A program made the translations under genes and the position numbers. The notes beneath the pieces are model-generated. The model was not told the DNA's origin and ran no database searches. It saw only the letters and a list, made by a program, of their open reading frames with translations. Shown here one piece after another: positions 18,248 to 24,908 of a stretch of 64,000 nucleotides of DNA. Numbering within the stretch: position 1 is the first letter of the stretch; every line of letters begins with the position of its first letter. Source of the DNA: Acidobacteriota bacterium (GTDB lineage Bacteria > Acidobacteriota > Blastocatellia > Pyrinomonadales > Pyrinomonadaceae); the NCBI GenBank assembly GCA_019639235.1, contig JAHBSG010000015.1, positions 1-64,000 of the forward strand. The letters are read 5' to 3'.

Positions 18248-18796
18248 ATGAAGCGTTCCTTTTTCTACCCGCTTTTTCTTATCGCCGTAACTCTCGTCGC
18301 CGGCGCCGGTGAGGCCTCGGCCCAGCGCGACTACATGACCGAAGAGGAGATCGAGATCGTCCGCGACGCGCAGGACATCGATCTTCGCATCGACGTGCTG
18401 ACGAAGATGATCGACAGGAGGCTGGCTGCTCTTGGGATAGAACACGGCGGCTGGAAGAACGCCGCGAAGGAAGATCCGAAATGGGGGCCGCTGCCGAAGG
18501 GCTCGCGTGCGGAACTGCTAACGGACATACGGCGGCTGATCGAGAAATCGATCGATGACATCGAGACCATCGCCGACCGCGACGACCGAGCACTGGAGCA
18601 AAACAAGATGGGCGGAAAGCTCTTTCCGAAAGCCATCCATATGCTCGACGCGGCCGGCCAACGCTACACCGCTATATTCAAAAAACTGCTTGACGGCAAC
18701 ACTGAAGAACGCGAACGCGGCGTCCTGCTAAACTCCATCGACCTCTGCGACCAAATAAACGCCGCAGCCAAAACCATCCCAAAACCAAAGAAGTGA
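18248..18796 (+). CDS. Exported protein of unknown function, third gene of TPR operon
   Basis: A 182-residue protein with a clear signal peptide (MKRSFFYPLFLIAVTLVAGA, cut near EASAQ). The mature protein is a helical, charge-rich domain: EEEIEIVRDAQDIDLRIDVL, a Gly/Trp loop GGWKNAAKEDPKWGPLP, and LLTDIRRLIEKSIDDIETIA. Its helical character resembles the preceding protein, and the two may be distant paralogues. No enzyme motif or known family was recognised. Its stop codon lies at the edge of a repeated segment resembling the pntB 3' end, so the operon ends where the repeat-rich zone begins. Confidence 0.7.
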   Translation: MKRSFFYPLFLIAVTLVAGAGEASAQRDYMTEEEIEIVRDAQDIDLRIDVLTKMIDRRLAALGIEHGGWKNAAKEDPKWGPLPKGSRAELLTDIRRLIEKSIDDIETIADRDDRALEQNKMGGKLFPKAIHMLDAAGQRYTAIFKKLLDGNTEERERGVLLNSIDLCDQINAAAKTIPKPKK

Positions 18797-18854
18797 TCAC
18801 CCGCGCATCGCCGTCAATATCTCATCCACATTCATCTTCACATCAACGAAGAGC
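18795..18854 (-). repeat. Copy of a pntB-like 3' tail
   Basis: About 60 bp matching the 3' end of pntB (20581-20640) at roughly 50 of 60 positions without gaps. Read on the minus strand it encodes [19 protein letters not shown] and a stop, against [19 protein letters not shown] in PntB. It sits directly against the palindromic element at 18860. Confidence 0.65.
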
Positions 18855-18859
18855 TTCAC

Positions 18860-18920
18860 AAAGCTCCCCTCCTTACGAAGGAGGGGTGGCACCCGCTTCG
18901 GGTGACGGGGTGGTTCTCTC
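18860..18920 (+). repeat. Two-hairpin palindromic element, copy 1
   Basis: Contains CCCCTCCTTACGAAGGAGGGG (a stem with 9-bp arms), then TGG, then the second hairpin CACCCGCTTCGGGTG, then ACGGGGTGGTTCTCT. It is in the opposite orientation to copies 4-6 (20339-20561) and in the same orientation as copies 2 and 3. Confidence 0.85.
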
Positions 18921-19207
18921 CGTCCGGTCGACGTTTAGCCGAGCGAAACATGTCTCCGCCCCTAACTTCCGCTTTAAGCTTGTCCCCCTGCTAAAACACC
19001 GAGGCGGGGCGACAAAGCTGTTAGACGACCGGGCCTTTTTCCAGTACCTTCGCTTCGATCAAAAACATCGTAGCAATACTAACATCGCATCGGAGCCAAA
19101 ACCGTTAGTGCTCTTTCGGCGGATCGGTCAGCATCTGGCAGAACCAGCGAGCGTCCTCGGGAAATTCCTTTTCCCACAGAAACTCTCTGGCGACGGTCGG
19201 GTAAACG
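18921..19207. other. Gene-poor stretch, probably decayed coding DNA
   Basis: No convincing gene. On the minus strand, just past the stop of the 19208 gene, one frame reads a protein-like tail (EFLWEKEFPEDARWFCQMLT, DPPKEH, stop at 19105-19107), and further on the same frame gives MFLIEAKVLEKGPVV and a stop. These may be remnants of a gene or genes destroyed by the repeats. A GC-rich inverted segment (GTCCCCC...GGGGCGAC) lies near 18979-19016. Nothing else was recognised. Confidence 0.35.
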
Positions 19208-19699
19208 CTACAAGTCACTGAGCCAGTCGTCACTATCCGTAATCTTCCGCGAATGAACCGAAAATCTTTTGCCTTTATTGAGCAAAATCACCGTCTCGGC
19301 GCTAGTATCATCCCCGGAATAGAACATCAGGTCAGTCCGACCATCTTTATTCACGTCACCCGCAGGAACCAGTGAATATACCCAATAGCTACCGCCCTGC
19401 CCTGCAATTCCGTAGTTGTAGGCGAAAAACGACTTTATCGACTTTCCGGTAGAGGTCTTTAGATCGAAAGTGATCCAATTCTTAACGTATTTATTGAGGA
19501 GACGTTTCCCCGGTGGGTTGTGATAGGTCTGGTATGTTCGAGGCTGAATCCGATCCGGTACTCCGTCACCGTCAACATCAATGAAGATCGGAGCCAGATT
19601 GTCGAAACCGCGCCTTTCGTTGTCAGAAATTTGCTGAGCATTCGTCGACACGGAAAAGACGAGCAGAGCAAGTTTCAAAAACAATATAACTTTGATCAT
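19208..19699 (-). CDS. Small exported protein with FG-GAP/VCBS-like calcium loops
   Basis: A 163-residue protein with a signal peptide (MIKVILFLKLALLVFSVSTN, cut near AQQ). Two calcium-binding loops of the VCBS/FG-GAP type are visible: FIDVDGDGVPDRI and AGDVNKDGRTDLMFY, each at the start of what would be a propeller-like repeat. The rest is beta-rich. Its codon usage is less GC-rich than its neighbours, and it sits inside the repeat-rich zone with no operon partner, so recent arrival is possible. The ribosome-binding region (AAGGAATTAAG) lies at the edge of a copy of the pntB-like tail. Exact function unknown. Confidence 0.65.
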   Translation of the reverse strand: MIKVILFLKLALLVFSVSTNAQQISDNERRGFDNLAPIFIDVDGDGVPDRIQPRTYQTYHNPPGKRLLNKYVKNWITFDLKTSTGKSIKSFFAYNYGIAGQGGSYWVYSLVPAGDVNKDGRTDLMFYSGDDTSAETVILLNKGKRFSVHSRKITDSDDWLSDL

Positions 19700-19713
19700 C
19701 TCAACTTAATTCC

Positions 19714-19771
19714 TTATCGCCGTTAGAATTTCAACCACCACCATCTTCACATCAATGAAGAACTTCACAAC
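19714..19771 (-). repeat. Degenerate second copy of the pntB-like 3' tail
   Basis: Matches 18799-18859 more closely than pntB itself (CATCTTCACATCAATGAAGA against CATCTTCACATCAACGAAGA). Translated on the minus strand it reads KFFIDVKMVVVEILTAIR. It again abuts a palindromic element, so tail and element appear to have been copied as one unit. Confidence 0.55.
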
Positions 19772-19832
19772 AACTCCCCTCCTTACGAAGGAGGGGTGGC
19801 ACCCGCTTCGGGTGACGGGGTGGTTCTCTCCG
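19772..19832 (+). repeat. Two-hairpin palindromic element, copy 2
   Basis: Nearly identical to copy 1 over the whole element, including the second hairpin CACCCGCTTCGGGTG and the tip GGGGTGGTTCTCTCCG. Confidence 0.85.
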
Positions 19833-19898
19833 CAAGATCAGCATTCATCCGTCATTTATCGAAACCAAAACAAAGAACCACTTCCCGGCAAAACCCGT

Positions 19899-19950
19899 AT
19901 CCCTCCTTCGTAAGAAGGAGAGCTTAATCAGACGGGGTGGTTCTCTCCGT
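19899..19950 (+). repeat. Palindromic element, copy 3 (shortened)
   Basis: Keeps the first hairpin (CTCCTTC...GAAGGAG) and the GACGGGGTGGTTCTCTCCG tip, but the second hairpin is replaced by CTTAATCA. It supplies the last codons (TERTTPSD) and the stop of the DUF559 gene. Confidence 0.75.
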
Positions 19951-20325
19951 CCAACCAAAGTTGCTTCGAATAACGGCGAGAACCCATTCCGCATCTTCAA
20001 ATACTAGCTTGTTCTCAAATCGAAGGACACGAATTCCGTGTGACTCAGCAAATTCTCTTTTCGAGCGGTCGTTCAACCGCGGGTGATCGACAAAATGAAG
20101 TTGGCCGTCCAATTCGATGGCTAGTTTTTCTTACGGGCAATAGAAGTCAAAAATGTAATTGCCGATGCTGTGCTGCCTTCGAAATTTACGCCCGTCGAGT
20201 TTTGAGCTCTTTACAAGGTTCCAAAAGGCCGCTTCGGCTGGCGTCAAGGATTTCCGTAGTTTGTCGCGGAACTTTGCGACCTGTGGCAATGAGTGTATGT
20301 CGGTTTTGCTTCTCTTGAACATCAC
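19924..20325 (-). pseudogene. DUF559 endonuclease-like gene with one internal stop
   Basis: A DUF559 (Vsr/PD-(D/E)XK-like) protein of about 133 codons, broken by a single in-frame TAA at 20131-20133. Before the stop it reads MMFKRSKTDIHSLPQVAKF...SLTPAEAAFWNLVKS...KFRRQHSIGNYIFDFYCP, and immediately after EKLAIELDGQLHF...SHGIRVLRFENKLVFEDAEW. Joined, this is the full family pattern: RRQHSIGNYIFDFYCP carries the catalytic Asp and ELDGQ the Glu. One substitution (for example GAA to TAA) explains the break. The gene sits between inverted sets of palindromic elements: copies 1-3 on one side, 4-6 on the other, with their GGTTCTC tips pointing at the gene. Such nuclease-repeat pairing suggests, without proof, that the nuclease acted in spreading the element. 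Readthrough or sequencing error are alternatives. Confidence 0.85.
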
Positions 20326-20338
20326 TTCTTATTTGCCC

Positions 20339-20398
20339 AGAGAACCACCCCGTCCGCCGAAGCGGCGTCCACCCCTCCTTCGTAAGGAGGGGAGCTTT
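20339..20398 (-). repeat. Two-hairpin palindromic element, copy 4
   Basis: AGAGAACCACCCCGTC, then hairpin CGCCGAAGCGGCG, then TCCACC, then hairpin CCCCTCCTTCGTAAGGAGGGG, then AGCTTT. The inner hairpin differs from copies 1-2 on both arms at once, keeping the pairing. Confidence 0.85.
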
Positions 20399-20418
20399 AT
20401 ATCTAGCCTTCGGATCTA

Positions 20419-20477
20419 GAGAACCACCCCGTCCGCCGAAGCGGCGTCCACCCCTCCTTCGTAAGAAGGGGAGTTTC
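20419..20477 (-). repeat. Two-hairpin palindromic element, copy 5
   Basis: Same layout as copy 4, with one mismatch in the outer stem (AAGAAGGGG instead of AAGGAGGGG). Separated from copy 4 by 20 bp containing the small palindrome ATCTAGCCTTCGGATCTAGA. Confidence 0.85.
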
Positions 20478-20498
20478 TTATTTTGCCCCAGGATTCGA

Positions 20499-20561
20499 GA
20501 GAACCACCCCGTCCGCCCAAAGCGGCGTCCACCCCTCCTTCGTAAGGAGGGGAGCTTTTTT
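20499..20561 (-). repeat. Two-hairpin palindromic element, copy 6
   Basis: Same layout; inner hairpin slightly decayed (CCGCCCAAAGCGGCG), outer hairpin perfect and followed by AGCTTTTTTT, which could also act as a plus-strand terminator. It lies 22 bp downstream of the pntB stop. Confidence 0.85.
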
Positions 20562-20583
20562 TCACACCCAAAGCTTATCAAGA

Positions 20584-21984
20584 TCACCCGCGCATCGCGG
20601 TCAATATCTCATCGACGACCTTCTTAGCATCGCCGAAGAGCATTTGGGTGTTGTCTTTGTAGAAGAGCGGGTTGTCCACGCCGGCGTAGCCCGAGGCCAT
20701 CGAGCGTTTCATGACGATGGTGTCGCGGGCTTCCCAAACGTGGAGCACCGGCATTCCCGCGATCGGCGAGGCCGGGTCATCGAGCGCCGACGGATTGACG
20801 ATATCATTCGCACCGATCACCCACGAAACATCCGTACCGCCAAATTCGTCGTTGATCTCTTCCATTTCAAAGACGATGTCATAGGGGATGTTCGCCTCGG
20901 CGAGCAGAACGTTCATGTGGCCCGGAAGCCGCCCGGCGACCGGATGGATGGCGAACTTAACTTCGGTGCCGCCTTCTTTCAATATCTTGACCACCTCGGC
21001 GAGCGAGTGCTGCGCCTGAGCAACGGCGAGCCCGTAGCCCGGGACGATGATCACTTTCTTTGCCTGCCGCAGCATTTCGGCCGAGGTCGCCGCATCTACC
21101 GAGCGCACCTCGCCGGCCGGGGCCGAACCGCCCGCGGCCGCAGAACCGCCTTCGGTGCCGAAGCCGCCAAGCATCACGCTGACGAATGAGCGGTTCATTC
21201 CGCGGCACATTATGTAGCTGAGGATCGCACCGCTCGAACCAACCAACGCTCCGGTGATGATGAGCAGGTCGTTCGAGAGCATAAAGCCCGCCGCCGAGGC
21301 CGCCCAACCCGAGTAGCTGTTCAGCATCGAAACGACCACCGGCATATCCGCACCGCCGATCGCCATTATGAAATGGATGCCCAAAACGCCGGTCACAACG
21401 GTCGCTGCTATCAGGTACGCGTTCCCGCCGGTTCCGGGCGCCATCACATAGAGCACGCCGAGAACGACCGTCGCGATCAGCATCAGGAGATTGATGAAAT
21501 GACGGCCGGGAAGCAGGAACGGGTTGCCGCTGATAGAGCCGCGAAGTTTGAGGAACGCGATGACCGATCCCGTGAAGGTGATCGAGCCGACGCAAACGCC
21601 GACGAAGATCTCGATCAGCAAGATACCGGCGTCCTCTACCGTTTTACCGGCGGCAAATTTATCGAGGTAGGTACCAAATCCGACCAAAACTGCCGCGAGC
21701 CCGACAAAGCTGTGCAGGATCGCCACAAGCTCCGGCATCGAGGTCATCTGCACCCGCGAGGCGACCGTTGCGCCGATCAGCGCACCGACCAGCACAACCG
21801 CACCGAGGATCGGCCAGCCGCTCGGCTGCATCGCCGCGACCGTCGCCGCCAGCGCGATAAGCATCCCGATGATGCCATACCAATTCCCCCGCCGGGCCGT
21901 CTCCTGCTTGGACAACCCACCAAGGCTCAAAATAAACAACGCACTCGCGGCGATGTATGCGATCGTGATCAAAGATTGTTGCAT
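20584..21984 (-). CDS. pntB: NAD(P) transhydrogenase subunit beta
   Basis: A 466-residue PntB: about nine membrane helices (domain II) followed by the soluble NADP(H) domain III with [53 protein letters not shown] and [12 protein letters not shown]. With PntA it transfers hydride from NADH to NADP+ driven by the proton gradient, supplying NADPH. The start is disturbed: the ATG at 21984 ([14 protein letters not shown]) has no ribosome-binding site, and an open frame continues through the REP element to 22026 ([14 protein letters not shown]). A truncated duplicate of the original 5' end lies at 22605-22700. The enzyme body is intact, but translation may depend on a REP-derived leader. Confidence 0.93.
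21911..21960 (-). repeat. Direct repeat of pntB 5' region, copy inside pntB
   Basis: Fifty bases identical to 22627-22676. The two copies bracket the RAYT gene and its inverted REPs. Just upstream of the identical block the first codons differ only at third positions (CTT/ATT/ACA/ATT against TTG/ATC/ACG/ATC plus first-base change in Leu). Confidence 0.9.
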
Positions 21985-21993
21985 ACAATGCAG

Positions 21994-22017
21994 AAGCCCG
22001 CGCGTAAGCAAGGGCTT
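21994..22017 (+). repeat. REP element, left of RAYT
   Basis: AAGCCCGCGCGTAAGCAAGG plus GCTT, an imperfect palindrome, within a longer conserved TGC(A/G)G...TTAAC context. Inverted relative to the copy at 22595-22618. Confidence 0.85.
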
Positions 22018-22032
22018 AACATCCAAGCCAGG

Positions 22033-22569
22033 CTAATCTCGAAACTCGAAAGGAATGTCCTCCTGGCAGTACTTAACGTAATCAACTGCGGCGTCAACAT
22101 GCCTCGGTTTCCAAAGGTATCGTGTGCTCGCCCCTCGCGACCAAACTTTCTCATCGCTACCACAGAGTCGCTCTGCTCTTAAACGGCGCGTGGCATAGGC
22201 CTTGAGATCATTCACGATCTTCTCCGGCTTTACGGCTCCGGAACTAACGACATGAGCATGATTTGTTCTCACGTTCATCGCGCGAAGGTCGTAGTCTCTA
22301 ATTTCACAAACTTCCCTGATGGCGGCCTCAACACAAAGCCGCTGCCGGTCGTCGAGCAACAACGGTCTTTGCTTTCGACCGTCCTTCATCGCCTCAATCA
22401 ACGGAACGCTCGGTGTCACCATCGGACCACCGTAGCGATTATTGCCGTTCCGTCTGACCGAGGTTCGTGCGTCCCCATGCAACCACGTACCATAGGTTCG
22501 GAAAGTCAGAAGGTAAGCGATCGGGAATGGATTTTCCTCGTAAACCTCGAATCCGTGATCGTCAAGCAT
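22033..22569 (-). CDS. REP-associated tyrosine transposase (RAYT, Y1/HUH family)
   Basis: A 178-residue IS200-like Y1 transposase of the REP-associated group. The family opening is TFRTYGTWLHGDARTSV; the HUH metal site is NVRTNHAHVVSS and the nucleophile lies in LKAYATRRLR; the C-terminal part has VWSRGASTRYLW and AVDYVKYCQE. RAYTs are single-copy domesticated nucleases that cut and join REP hairpins as single-stranded DNA. This one is flanked at once by inverted REPs at 21994-22017 and 22595-22618, a typical arrangement, and appears intact. It interrupts the pnt operon between the 22701 gene and pntB. Start ATG at 22569; no strong ribosome-binding site. Confidence 0.9.
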   Translation of the reverse strand: MLDDHGFEVYEENPFPIAYLLTFRTYGTWLHGDARTSVRRNGNNRYGGPMVTPSVPLIEAMKDGRKQRPLLLDDRQRLCVEAAIREVCEIRDYDLRAMNVRTNHAHVVSSGAVKPEKIVNDLKAYATRRLRAERLCGSDEKVWSRGASTRYLWKPRHVDAAVDYVKYCQEDIPFEFRD

Positions 22570-22594
22570 ATTCCTGCATTCGATGTTGCGAGTT

Positions 22595-22618
22595 AAGCCC
22601 TTGCTTACGCGCGGGCTT
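22595..22618 (-). repeat. REP element, right of RAYT
   Basis: AAGCCCTTGCTTACGCGCGG plus GCTT, the exact reverse complement of the left copy; also identical to 23862-23885 inside pntA. Confidence 0.85.
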
Positions 22619-22700
22619 CCGCATTCGACAACCCACCAAGGCTCAAAATAAACAACGCACTCGCGGCGATGTATGCAATTGTAATAAGGCCGGTTTTCAT
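22605..22700 (-). pseudogene. Truncated duplicate of the pntB 5' end
   Basis: Reads [20 protein letters not shown], then LGGLSNAEARA and a stop inside the REP. The ATG immediately follows the TGA of the 22701 gene, as expected for the original pntB start in a tightly packed operon, so this is probably the ancestral 5' end left behind when the RAYT-REP unit entered. It is too short to be functional. Confidence 0.8.
22627..22676 (-). repeat. Direct repeat of pntB 5' region, copy in the truncated duplicate
   Basis: Identical for 50 bp to 21911-21960 within functional pntB. Confidence 0.9.
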
Positions 22701-23270: not shown

Positions 23271-24908
23271 CTACTTCCTAAACATCGCCAGCATTCTGTT
23301 GGTAACTAAAAATCCGCCGGCGATGTTGATCGTGGCGATGAGAACGGCGACGGCGCCGAGGATCGTGGTCACGTTCATCTCGCCGGAGAGTTGAAGCATT
23401 CCGCCGACGAGGATGATGCCGCTGATCGCGTTGGTGACGCTCATTAGCGGCGTGTGCAGGGCGGGCTTCACATTCCAGACCACCTGGAACCCGACGAAGA
23501 CCGCGAGCATAAAGACCGTAAAGTGCGAGAGCTTCGAGTCCGGCACGTAAAAGCCGATCAGCAGCAGTACAAGCCCGATGCCGACAAGCGTCAGCGGGTG
23601 CATTCCCGTGCCCTCGTCGTGGCCGTGGCCGGCGGAGCTTTTCGCAGCCGCGGCGACCGCTGCCGAGCTCTTGGTCGGCACGCCCGGTTCCGGCGGCGGC
23701 GGCTGTTCTTTGACCGGTGCCGGCCAGAGCATCTTGCCCTCGTGGAGCACGATCGCACCGCGGACTATCTCATCCTCGAGATTCACGACAAGTTGCGGAG
23801 GCCCGACCGTGAGGGAGGGCTTAACATCCGAGTTTAATTGCTCCTCGTTCTGTTTCGTGTCAAGCCCTTGCTTACGCGCGGGCTTCTGCAATTCTTCGAT
23901 CAACGCCGTCACACACGCTCCGTAAAGCTGCGACGACATCGAAGCCATCCGCGAGGGCAGGTCCGTGTAGCCGATTATGGTAACACCCTTGTGGTGGACG
24001 ACCTTGCCAGGCTCTGTCAGCGCACAGTTGCCGCCCTGCTCGGCCGCGAGGTCAACGATAACCGAGCCCGGCTTCATTGATTCGACCATGCCCTGCGTTA
24101 TCAGCTTCGGTGCCGGCTTGCCGGGTATCAACGCGGTCGTCACGATGATATCGACCTGCATCGCCTGGGCGGCAAAGAGGGCCATTTCGGCTTTGAGAAA
24201 ATCGTCCGACATCTGCTTGGCATAGCCGCCCTTGCCTTCGCCTTCTTCCTTGATGTCGAGTTCGAGAAACTCGGCGCCCATCGAGGCGACCTGATCCTTG
24301 GTCGCCGACCGCGGGTCAAATGCCCGGACGATCGCGCCCAATCCCTTCGCCGCACCGATCGCCGAAAGCCCCGCAACGCCCGCACCAATAACAAGTACCT
24401 TTGCCGGGTCGATCTTGCCGGCGGCCGTGATCTGTCCGGTAAAGAAACGCGGAAAATGTGCCGCCGCTTCGATCACCGCACGGTAGCCCGCGATGTTCGC
24501 CATCGCCGAAAGCGTGTCCATCTTTTGCGCCCGCGTTATCCGCGGCACGCTGTCCATCGCAAAAACGGTCGCCTTTCGCTTGGCGAGCTTATCGACGATC
24601 TCGCGGTTCTGCCCCGGCCACAAAAAGCCGACCAGCCAACCGCCCTCGCGGAGCAGTTCGGCCTCGCCTTCCTCGGGCGGCCGGACCTTCATCACCACGT
24701 CCGAGGTGGACCAAAGCTCTTTCGCGTCTGCGGCGATCGTCGCGCCGGCCTCTTGATACTCGGCGTCCGAGGCGTCGATGGCGATGCCGGCACCCGATTC
24801 GACGGCGACGTCGAAACCGAGTTTCTTGAGCTTTAGTATCGTTTGAGGGGTGGCGGCGACACGGCGTTCGCCCGGATGGATCTCTTTAGGGATTCCGATC
24901 GTTGGCAT
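23271..24908 (-). CDS. pntA: NAD(P) transhydrogenase subunit alpha, with REP-derived insert
   Basis: A 545-residue PntA combining the NAD(H) domain I and the short membrane part in one chain. Domain I starts [20 protein letters not shown] and has the Rossmann turn [18 protein letters not shown] and [19 protein letters not shown] Pro/Ala/Lys-rich linker leads to about three helices ([55 protein letters not shown]). Residues about 340-372 ([20 protein letters not shown], then [11 protein letters not shown]) are encoded by a 99-bp inverted REP pair inserted in frame in the hydrophilic joint between domain I and the membrane part. The start at 24908 begins the conserved sequence; a promoter-like element places the transcript start about 5 nt before it. 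Confidence 0.93.
23793..23891. repeat. Inverted REP pair (BIME-like) inside pntA
   Basis: Exactly 99 bp with TTGC/GCAA ends. One arm (23859-23891) carries the same REP as beside RAYT; the other (23793-23825) is a variant in opposite orientation (GAGGCCCGACCGTGAGGGAG, then GGCTTAAC). The length is a multiple of three and both arms are open in the pntA frame. Confidence 0.85.

Follow-up and report, generated by a model that had tools for sequence, protein, structure and literature searches.

What is a cluster of short palindromic repeats doing around a small gene of the DUF559 family, and do the two belong together? The question is raised by a stretch of 64,000 nucleotides (nt) from a member of the Pyrinomonadaceae (Acidobacteriota), to which we refer at its whole length as the window and in which all coordinates are given unless a locus is named. 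Within about 1.7 kb of this window, at positions 18856-20562, six copies of a palindromic element surround a gene encoding a DUF559 (PF04480) domain, as an original prediction made from the sequence alone had stated. The analysis revealed an association between gene and element that holds in the genus and family of the organism and recurs in several phyla. We consider it very probable that gene and element together form a single mobile system, and we favour, with less assurance, the reading that the cluster in the window is a decayed copy of such a system, composed of a DUF559 nuclease gene and a two-hairpin palindromic element. That its movement is homing-like we regard as an evenly balanced proposition.

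The DUF559 gene comprises 132 codons on the minus strand (19924-20322; profile E-value 4.7e-26). A single TAA in frame, at 20131-20133, interrupts it, and no other match to PF04480 was present in the genome, which has a size of 3.84 Mb. Copies 1 (18856-18923; 94.4 bits), 2 (19766-19833; 91.8 bits) and 3 (19891-19950; 52.4 bits) of the element are found on the minus strand and copies 4 (20335-20402; 93.8 bits), 5 (20414-20481; 92.6 bits) and 6 (20494-20562; 87.1 bits) on the plus strand, where the scores are those of R1, the covariance model built from the six window copies. As a consequence of this arrangement all AGAGAACC ends point toward the DUF559 gene, so that the two groups of copies face each other as had been described. 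The two hairpins that were originally assigned to each copy are present in five of them, copy 6 having one additional base in the loop; copy 3 is degenerate and its inner hairpin is gone. The same copy does provide the final codons of the DUF559 open reading frame (ORF), namely ERTTPSD and the stop. The density of the cluster is far beyond chance, since a census by covariance-model searches yielded about 44 R1 copies in the genome (E < 1e-3), which implies about 0.04 copies per 3.3 kb, and six are seen at the only DUF559 gene. In line with this census, the 13-mer tip AGAGAACCACCCC has 25 exact occurrences in the genome versus none for the reversed control.

Read from AGAGAACC toward GGGGAG, a full copy consists of the tail AGAGAACCACCCCGTC, which is indeed invariant in all six copies, an inner hairpin and the outer hairpin CCACCCCTCC-TTCGTAA-GGAGGGGAG, often accompanied by a run of T residues. 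Described by its parts, the element combines the outer hairpin CTCCCCTCC...GGAGGGG(AG) with an inner one that is variable yet self-complementary, the two being spaced by TGG, and carries the fixed tail GACGGGGTGGTTCTCT. The tetranucleotide CGTC is present next to the inner hairpin; the tetranucleotide GTAG is absent from the hairpin foot, where the invariant tail is AGAGAACCACCCCGTC. The inner stem reads CACCCGAAGCGGGTG in copies 1-2 and CGCCGAAGCGGCG in copies 4-5, and both arms differ between these pairs of copies, as claimed at the outset. This covariation of the arms holds on a larger alignment of 103 copies (A3, 90 of them distinct), in which all five inner-stem pairs have changes on both sides and 97% of the cells pair. 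The covariation score was 0.184 versus 0.054 for shuffled alignments (0/500) and at most 0.039 for slid registers, to be read with the reservation that the copies were aligned to the covariance model, which somewhat favours structure. As the outer stem is nearly invariant, the evidence from covariation concerns the inner hairpin only. The palindrome is thus kept. The original prediction had gone further and taken the fold itself to be selected as RNA or single-stranded DNA; of that claim the maintained palindromy stands, and covariation does not distinguish RNA from single-stranded or cruciform DNA. Moreover, compensatory changes could also arise without selection, through arm-to-arm copying by template switching.

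A search for PF04480 in 98 relatives provided a direct view of the association within the genus and family. R1 elements were found at all 21 stand-alone DUF559 loci, typically on both sides and within about 100 nt of the domain; at locus L058, for instance, elements at 1349-1416 and 1825-1892 surround a domain at 1501-1809. Those DUF559 domains that reside within long ORFs (L040-L042, L044, L063, L066-L068) were without this version of the element. In a control with the genes for RAYT proteins (PF01797), the transposases connected to repetitive extragenic palindromic (REP) sequences, an R1 element was found at only 1 of 30 loci in the same genomes and with the same flanks. The number of element copies ranges from 0 to 75 per congener, with a median of 20.5 in genomes that have a stand-alone DUF559 gene and of 8 in those that do not (Mann-Whitney p = 6e-5; p = 0.002 for genomes at least 94% complete), kinship being ignored in both comparisons. 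As a separate observation, some 15 element copies are arranged around DUF559 at locus L054 (594-2548; identical to L097), in head-to-head pairs with a spacing of about 200 nt.

The association extends beyond the genus and family. When 84,980 species genomes were scanned with a profile, at least 79 distinct loci with DUF559 were obtained, their sources including Acidobacteriota, Bacteroidota, Nitrospirota, Marinimicrobia, Verrucomicrobiota, Planctomycetota and Calditrichota. A model-free comparison of the 500 nt before with the 500 nt after the DUF559 match, in both orientations, showed the same repeat in both flanks at 52 of 77 DUF559 loci (68%) versus 13 of 599 control ORFs (2%) from the same contigs (Fisher p = 5e-46). 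Inverted flanking repeats alone occur at 33 DUF559 loci and 2 controls (p = 3e-32). A description of DUF559 as always lying between inverted repeats was ruled out, direct flanking repeats being found 30 times among the 77 loci. Perfect hairpins (stem of at least 9) reach a density of 0.89/kb within 500 nt of DUF559 and of about 0.13/kb at 500 nt to 8 kb. A common form, (A)CTCCCCTCC-TTnnAA-GGAGGGG-TG-[variable hairpin]-GGGGTGGTT, makes the repeats of the different phyla, from Hymenobacter and Pontibacter to Nitrospirae, recognisable as one element. In the phylum sample belonging to one metagenome-assembled genome of Pseudomonadales, inverted repeats flank DUF559 at 13 of the 29 best loci, with other letters and the same order of parts, as in CTTCTCCCC..GGGGAGAAGG-TGG-[inner hairpin]-GACGGATGAGGGG and in CCCTCTCCC..GGGAGAGGG..GGGTGAGGGC; a further phylum sample gave such repeats at 8 of 26 loci. 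The predicted tie between element and DUF559 genes is therefore strong, both in the genus and across phyla. Its scope had to be redrawn: the pairing is not local, the orientation of the flanks varies, and DUF559 is also found inside host genes.

The predicted properties of the protein are in accordance with a role in mobility. Among 21 DUF559 homologues the residues E31, F61, E71, D73, G74, H77 and D86 are invariant and D60 is almost so. The nearest solved structures to the AlphaFold2 model (pLDDT 87) are 3hrl, an endonuclease-like protein from Neisseria, and 3r3p, which represents the catalytic domain of I-Bth0305I (Foldseek E 5.6e-5, TM 0.77), followed by Vsr; a profile match with I-Bth0305I was obtained at E 0.0023. 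Judged by this model, DUF559 is a Vsr-like PD-(D/E)XK nuclease with the fold of the homing endonuclease I-Bth0305I, and a homing-type fold is what a homing system should have. That the protein cuts DNA we infer from its fold and family.

A putative target of the system is suggested by the adjacent gene pntB (20584-22026, minus strand; the gene names pntB, alaS and gltX were assigned by eye from translations, Pfam names by a domain scan). The native pntB 3' end (20582-20641, minus strand), the presumed site of insertion, recurs past the DUF559 cassette as a decayed duplicate (19704-19763, minus strand; VVVEILTAIRN and stop; 68%) and past the next cassette as a second duplicate (18795-18854, minus strand; 83%). 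An ORF with an FG-GAP repeat (19208-19699, minus strand) lies between both duplicates and would, on account of its position, be the cargo of that second cassette. The arrangement is not confined to the window: DUF559 is located just past the pntB 3' end in 12 genomes (that of the window and eleven congeners), in both orientations, and in 8 of these 12 the last 20 or so pntB codons are repeated beyond the cassette. Duplicates besides the two in the window were found in G010, G014, G035, G018, G003 and G015, and in G004 in a two-cassette arrangement; at locus L069 the duplicate forms a direct repeat of 61 nt. Several of the fragments are closer to the pntB ends of other genomes than to their own, 57 nt being too short to settle the matter. 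Within the genus, DUF559 adjoins the pntB 3' end in some genomes and is missing there in others. Cassettes at this site that lack DUF559 (G024, G027, G034, G004; loci L330, L304, L322, L325) hold an AbrB-like antitoxin gene or other small ORFs, and they too terminate in a repeated stretch of the final pntB codons.

Both the element and the enzyme are also encountered within coding sequences. About 20 of 30 element loci retrieved from the genome of the window are in frame within long ORFs. The gltX product contains about 19 in-frame residues contributed by the element (SSPPYEGGVDAASSGRGGSLPF) in G000, G010, G020 and G031; the element is lacking from gltX in G008, G011, G013, G025, G033 and G035, and other genomes have different inserts. 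Such empty sites in close relatives had been proposed as a check, and gltX supplies them; no clear duplication is visible in its empty alleles. At the alaS site, G000 and G010 have different subtypes of the element. In relatives, element sites of G000 are filled by other palindromic repeats (L157 and L173 in G010, L170 in G031, L177 in G020), for instance GAGCGCGGACACTCTTGTCCGC or arrays of GTGACGAGTGACGAG, from which it follows that repeats of several families can occupy one and the same permissive loop of a protein. The DUF559 domain, too, resides in frame within host proteins, flanked on either side by repeat-derived linkers (for example NPSQREG or PLGEGKGEG). The hosts include HsdR (between HSDR_N and the ATPase domain), HsdS, HsdM, Eco57I and N6/N4 methylases, RecG (L190, between DEAD and Helicase_C), a UvrD-like helicase (L189) and the leucyl-tRNA synthetase LeuRS (L214, before the editing domain). 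One identical DUF559 site just before Walker A, AYHQYYAVNKAI(E/D)ST...[DUF559]...AGVIWHTQGSGKS, is common to five HsdR proteins (L040, L041, L221, L225, L234), of which two belong to this genus and three to a different phylum sample. In L063, and in the related L044, DUF559 is located beside a Hint domain within an FAD monooxygenase ORF, and judging from its sequence L063 has the appearance of an intein in which DUF559 would be the homing domain. The nine other in-gene cases that were scanned contained neither a Hint nor a splicing domain.

A scheme that would connect these observations, and would entail the nuclease-driven spread supposed in the original prediction, starts with the nuclease cutting or nicking a preferred target, here the pntB 3' end and elsewhere, for example, the hsdR codons before Walker A. 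Repair of the break would copy in the nuclease gene together with its flanking palindromes, and these, folded as hairpins or cruciforms, may serve as ends or recognition sites. The palindromes could in addition spread alone, as non-autonomous copies acted upon in trans in the way of the REPs of RAYTs or of miniature inverted-repeat transposable elements (MITEs), with the copies that keep the frame persisting in host genes as linkers of about 20 residues. Insertion at pntB would have left the displaced duplicates of its end, as in the homing of yeast WHO elements. Homing would be expected to use one conserved site repeatedly and to leave empty alleles in relatives, and the common site of the five HsdR proteins and the pntB end, occupied by DUF559 in some congeners but not in others, agree with this. 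A far wider generalization, to which we give less than even weight, is that DUF559 constitutes a bacteria-wide class of homing elements without intron or intein, in which the palindromes might supply the ends, form harmless in-frame linkers and propagate on their own, making up one of the most frequent REP-like superfamilies of bacteria, combined with a WHO-like replacement of gene ends.

Several observations weigh against a mobile pair of nuclease and palindromes. The in-frame TAA of the window lies inside the conserved DFYCP.EKLAIELDG motif of a gene that is otherwise intact and open in most congeners; because of it the window copy is probably a pseudogene, an assembly error being the alternative. 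With the threshold applied, 25 of the 77 DUF559 loci lacked a flanking repeat, and element-rich genomes without a strong DUF559 match exist, such as G005 with 29 copies (85% complete). No clean target-site duplication was found for solo elements at the 14 sites compared in G010, G020 and G031, most of which hold other repeats or unrelated inserts, with clean presence/absence at gltX alone. The pntB-end duplicates also surround cassettes without DUF559 in G024, G027 and G034, and DUF559 may not be what opens the site; moreover, the twelve or so pntB loci of the genus share the site by descent and are not independent. The raised diversity known for WHO targets is not found either, the last 57 nt of pntB being as similar between relatives as the preceding 600 nt. 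Finally, this being an analysis of sequences, no cleavage, excision or movement was observed.

The explanation that we consider the strongest of the alternatives, in spite of judging it rather unlikely, is that of a passenger: the repeats would be ordinary MITE- or REP-like sequences moved by another enzyme, and DUF559 a small cargo gathering where repeats are dense and shuffled by recombination. The unfixed orientation of the flanking repeats fits such a passenger, as do the inversion of the DUF559 cassette relative to pntB in some genomes and the other ORFs that occupy similar cassettes at the pntB end. Indeed, as the duplicates flank other small ORFs too, small cargo in general is inserted at the pntB end, which thus qualifies as a hotspot. 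It is more difficult to explain in this way why the specific association recurs across phyla with different letters of the element and why RAYT genes, which are likewise small and mobile, lack the element in the same genomes; the identical HsdR site of in-frame DUF559 in two phylum samples also speaks for more than drift in repeats. RAYTs acting in trans, with the elements as REPs moved by Y1 (HUH) transposases and DUF559 merely profiting, are on our estimate a quite improbable source of the pattern. Y1_Tnp genes are certainly at hand, in 41 of 41 genomes of the genus and ten times in the genome of the window, with one RAYT gene (22033-22569) at 1.5 kb from the cluster. Nevertheless, this neighbour is flanked by a different repeat of its own, GTTAAGCCCTTGCTTACGCGCGGGCTTCTGCA, and neither the near absence of R1 from RAYT loci nor the lack of a GTAG tag would be expected of its substrate.

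A structured RNA, in which transcribed hairpins would serve DUF559 autoregulation or act as in type III toxin-antitoxin systems, is less credible still. The compensatory changes in the inner stem, the stable RNA folds and the position of the repeats next to a nuclease gene could be taken to agree with it, but the fold energies are just 0.8-2.1 standard deviations better than those of shuffled sequences, no Rfam family matches the element, and the copies occur on either strand, flank the gene on both sides without a fixed orientation, and are also scattered in frame through unrelated genes. We attach the smallest probability to the view that DUF559 is a restriction-like defence nuclease, its link with restriction-modification reflecting a joint function and the repeats being incidental. 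This view draws on the DUF559 domains inside HsdR, HsdM, HsdS and DNA methylases, but the same domain is inside LeuRS, RecG, UvrD and a Hint protein, no methylase accompanies the stand-alone copies, PADLOC models give just a weak partial match to DpdF (E 1.5e-5), and the repeats are left unexplained.

The mobile nuclease-palindrome pair that we favour resembles several known systems and is a member of none. With REP/RAYT systems (GTAG REPs, REPtrons, REPINs), intragenic REP copies of which are known (PMC3733652), it shares short dispersed palindromes flanking one small enzyme gene and non-autonomous copies throughout the genome. It differs from them in its enzyme, which is PD-(D/E)XK/Vsr-like (PF04480) instead of an HUH Y1 transposase (PF01797) and is itself inserted in frame within host genes, and in its element, which has two hairpins and the tag GACGGGGTGGTT instead of GTAG. 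REPs of the CGTC type, for which no transposase is known (Di Nocera et al., PMC3733652), are likewise tolerated in frame in coding genes, those for DNA repair included, and CGTC stands beside the inner hairpin of the element; they have, however, one stem of 8-9 bp with an A-T start and a CCA tail, whereas the element has two hairpins and mostly no A-T start. Identity with these REPs was rejected, since CGTCATT-type repeats are absent beside 29 DUF559 genes of the proteobacterial phylum sample. The Rickettsia palindromic elements (RPEs) are also in-frame palindromic insertions in unrelated coding genes, which is a likeness of behaviour. MITEs are short non-autonomous repeats that share their ends with a gene-bearing element, as here, whereas the solo elements have no established target-site duplication and the related enzyme is neither a DDE nor an HUH transposase.

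Among homing systems, I-Bth0305I (EDxHD, Vsr-like) has the fold of DUF559, and one DUF559 lies in a Hint/intein-like ORF. In contrast to DUF559, which is a bare domain of 120 residues between palindromes and mostly without intron or intein, I-Bth0305I has an extra DNA-binding region (PMC3943268) and was deposited as a mobile intron protein. Its EDxHD family is described as binding a target of nearly 60 bp (PMC3943268); that the pntB duplicates have about this length may be a coincidence. The yeast WHO elements home into the FBA1 3' end and leave displaced FBA1 fragments (PMC7282813). The picture is thus the same: a housekeeping gene has an endonuclease gene inserted at its 3' end and duplicates of its 3' fragment beyond the insertion, clusters and pseudogenes occur, and splicing is not involved (PMC7282813). 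The WHO nuclease is LAGLIDADG/intein-derived, however, the fragments have a length of some 400 bp versus about 60 here, palindromic repeats are not described for WHO, and the 3'-end hypervariability of WHO is not seen at pntB.

Few unexplained sequences in bacterial genomes are as abundant as short palindromic repeats, and for several superfamilies no mobilising enzyme is known. By linking one such superfamily to a homing-fold nuclease in several phyla, the specific association described here would provide a testable enzyme for such repeats. It could also account for DUF559, a widespread family to which no function has been assigned, and for its in-frame presence in restriction, helicase and tRNA-synthetase genes, as well as for where the translated-repeat peptides SPPYEGG, PSPxGRG and NPSQREG, which occur in frame in many proteins, come from. 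In a more general sense, the pairing points to a little-noticed form of selfish DNA, in whose behaviour homing genes and REP repeats would be combined. In the parts of the open literature mentioning DUF559 that we consulted, no link to repeats was seen, and it may have been described elsewhere.

The surroundings of the cluster deserve a final comment. A sub-threshold Rfam match to a plant miRNA at 23791-23893 lies outside the element and was taken as chance. The RAYT-like Y1 transposase gene mentioned above is encoded on the minus strand and has inverted copies of its own REPs at 21987-22020, 22592-22625 and 23858-23890. Hence pntB is situated between two repeat systems, that of DUF559 with its element and that of the RAYT with its REPs, and one copy of the RAYT REP is in frame within pntA.

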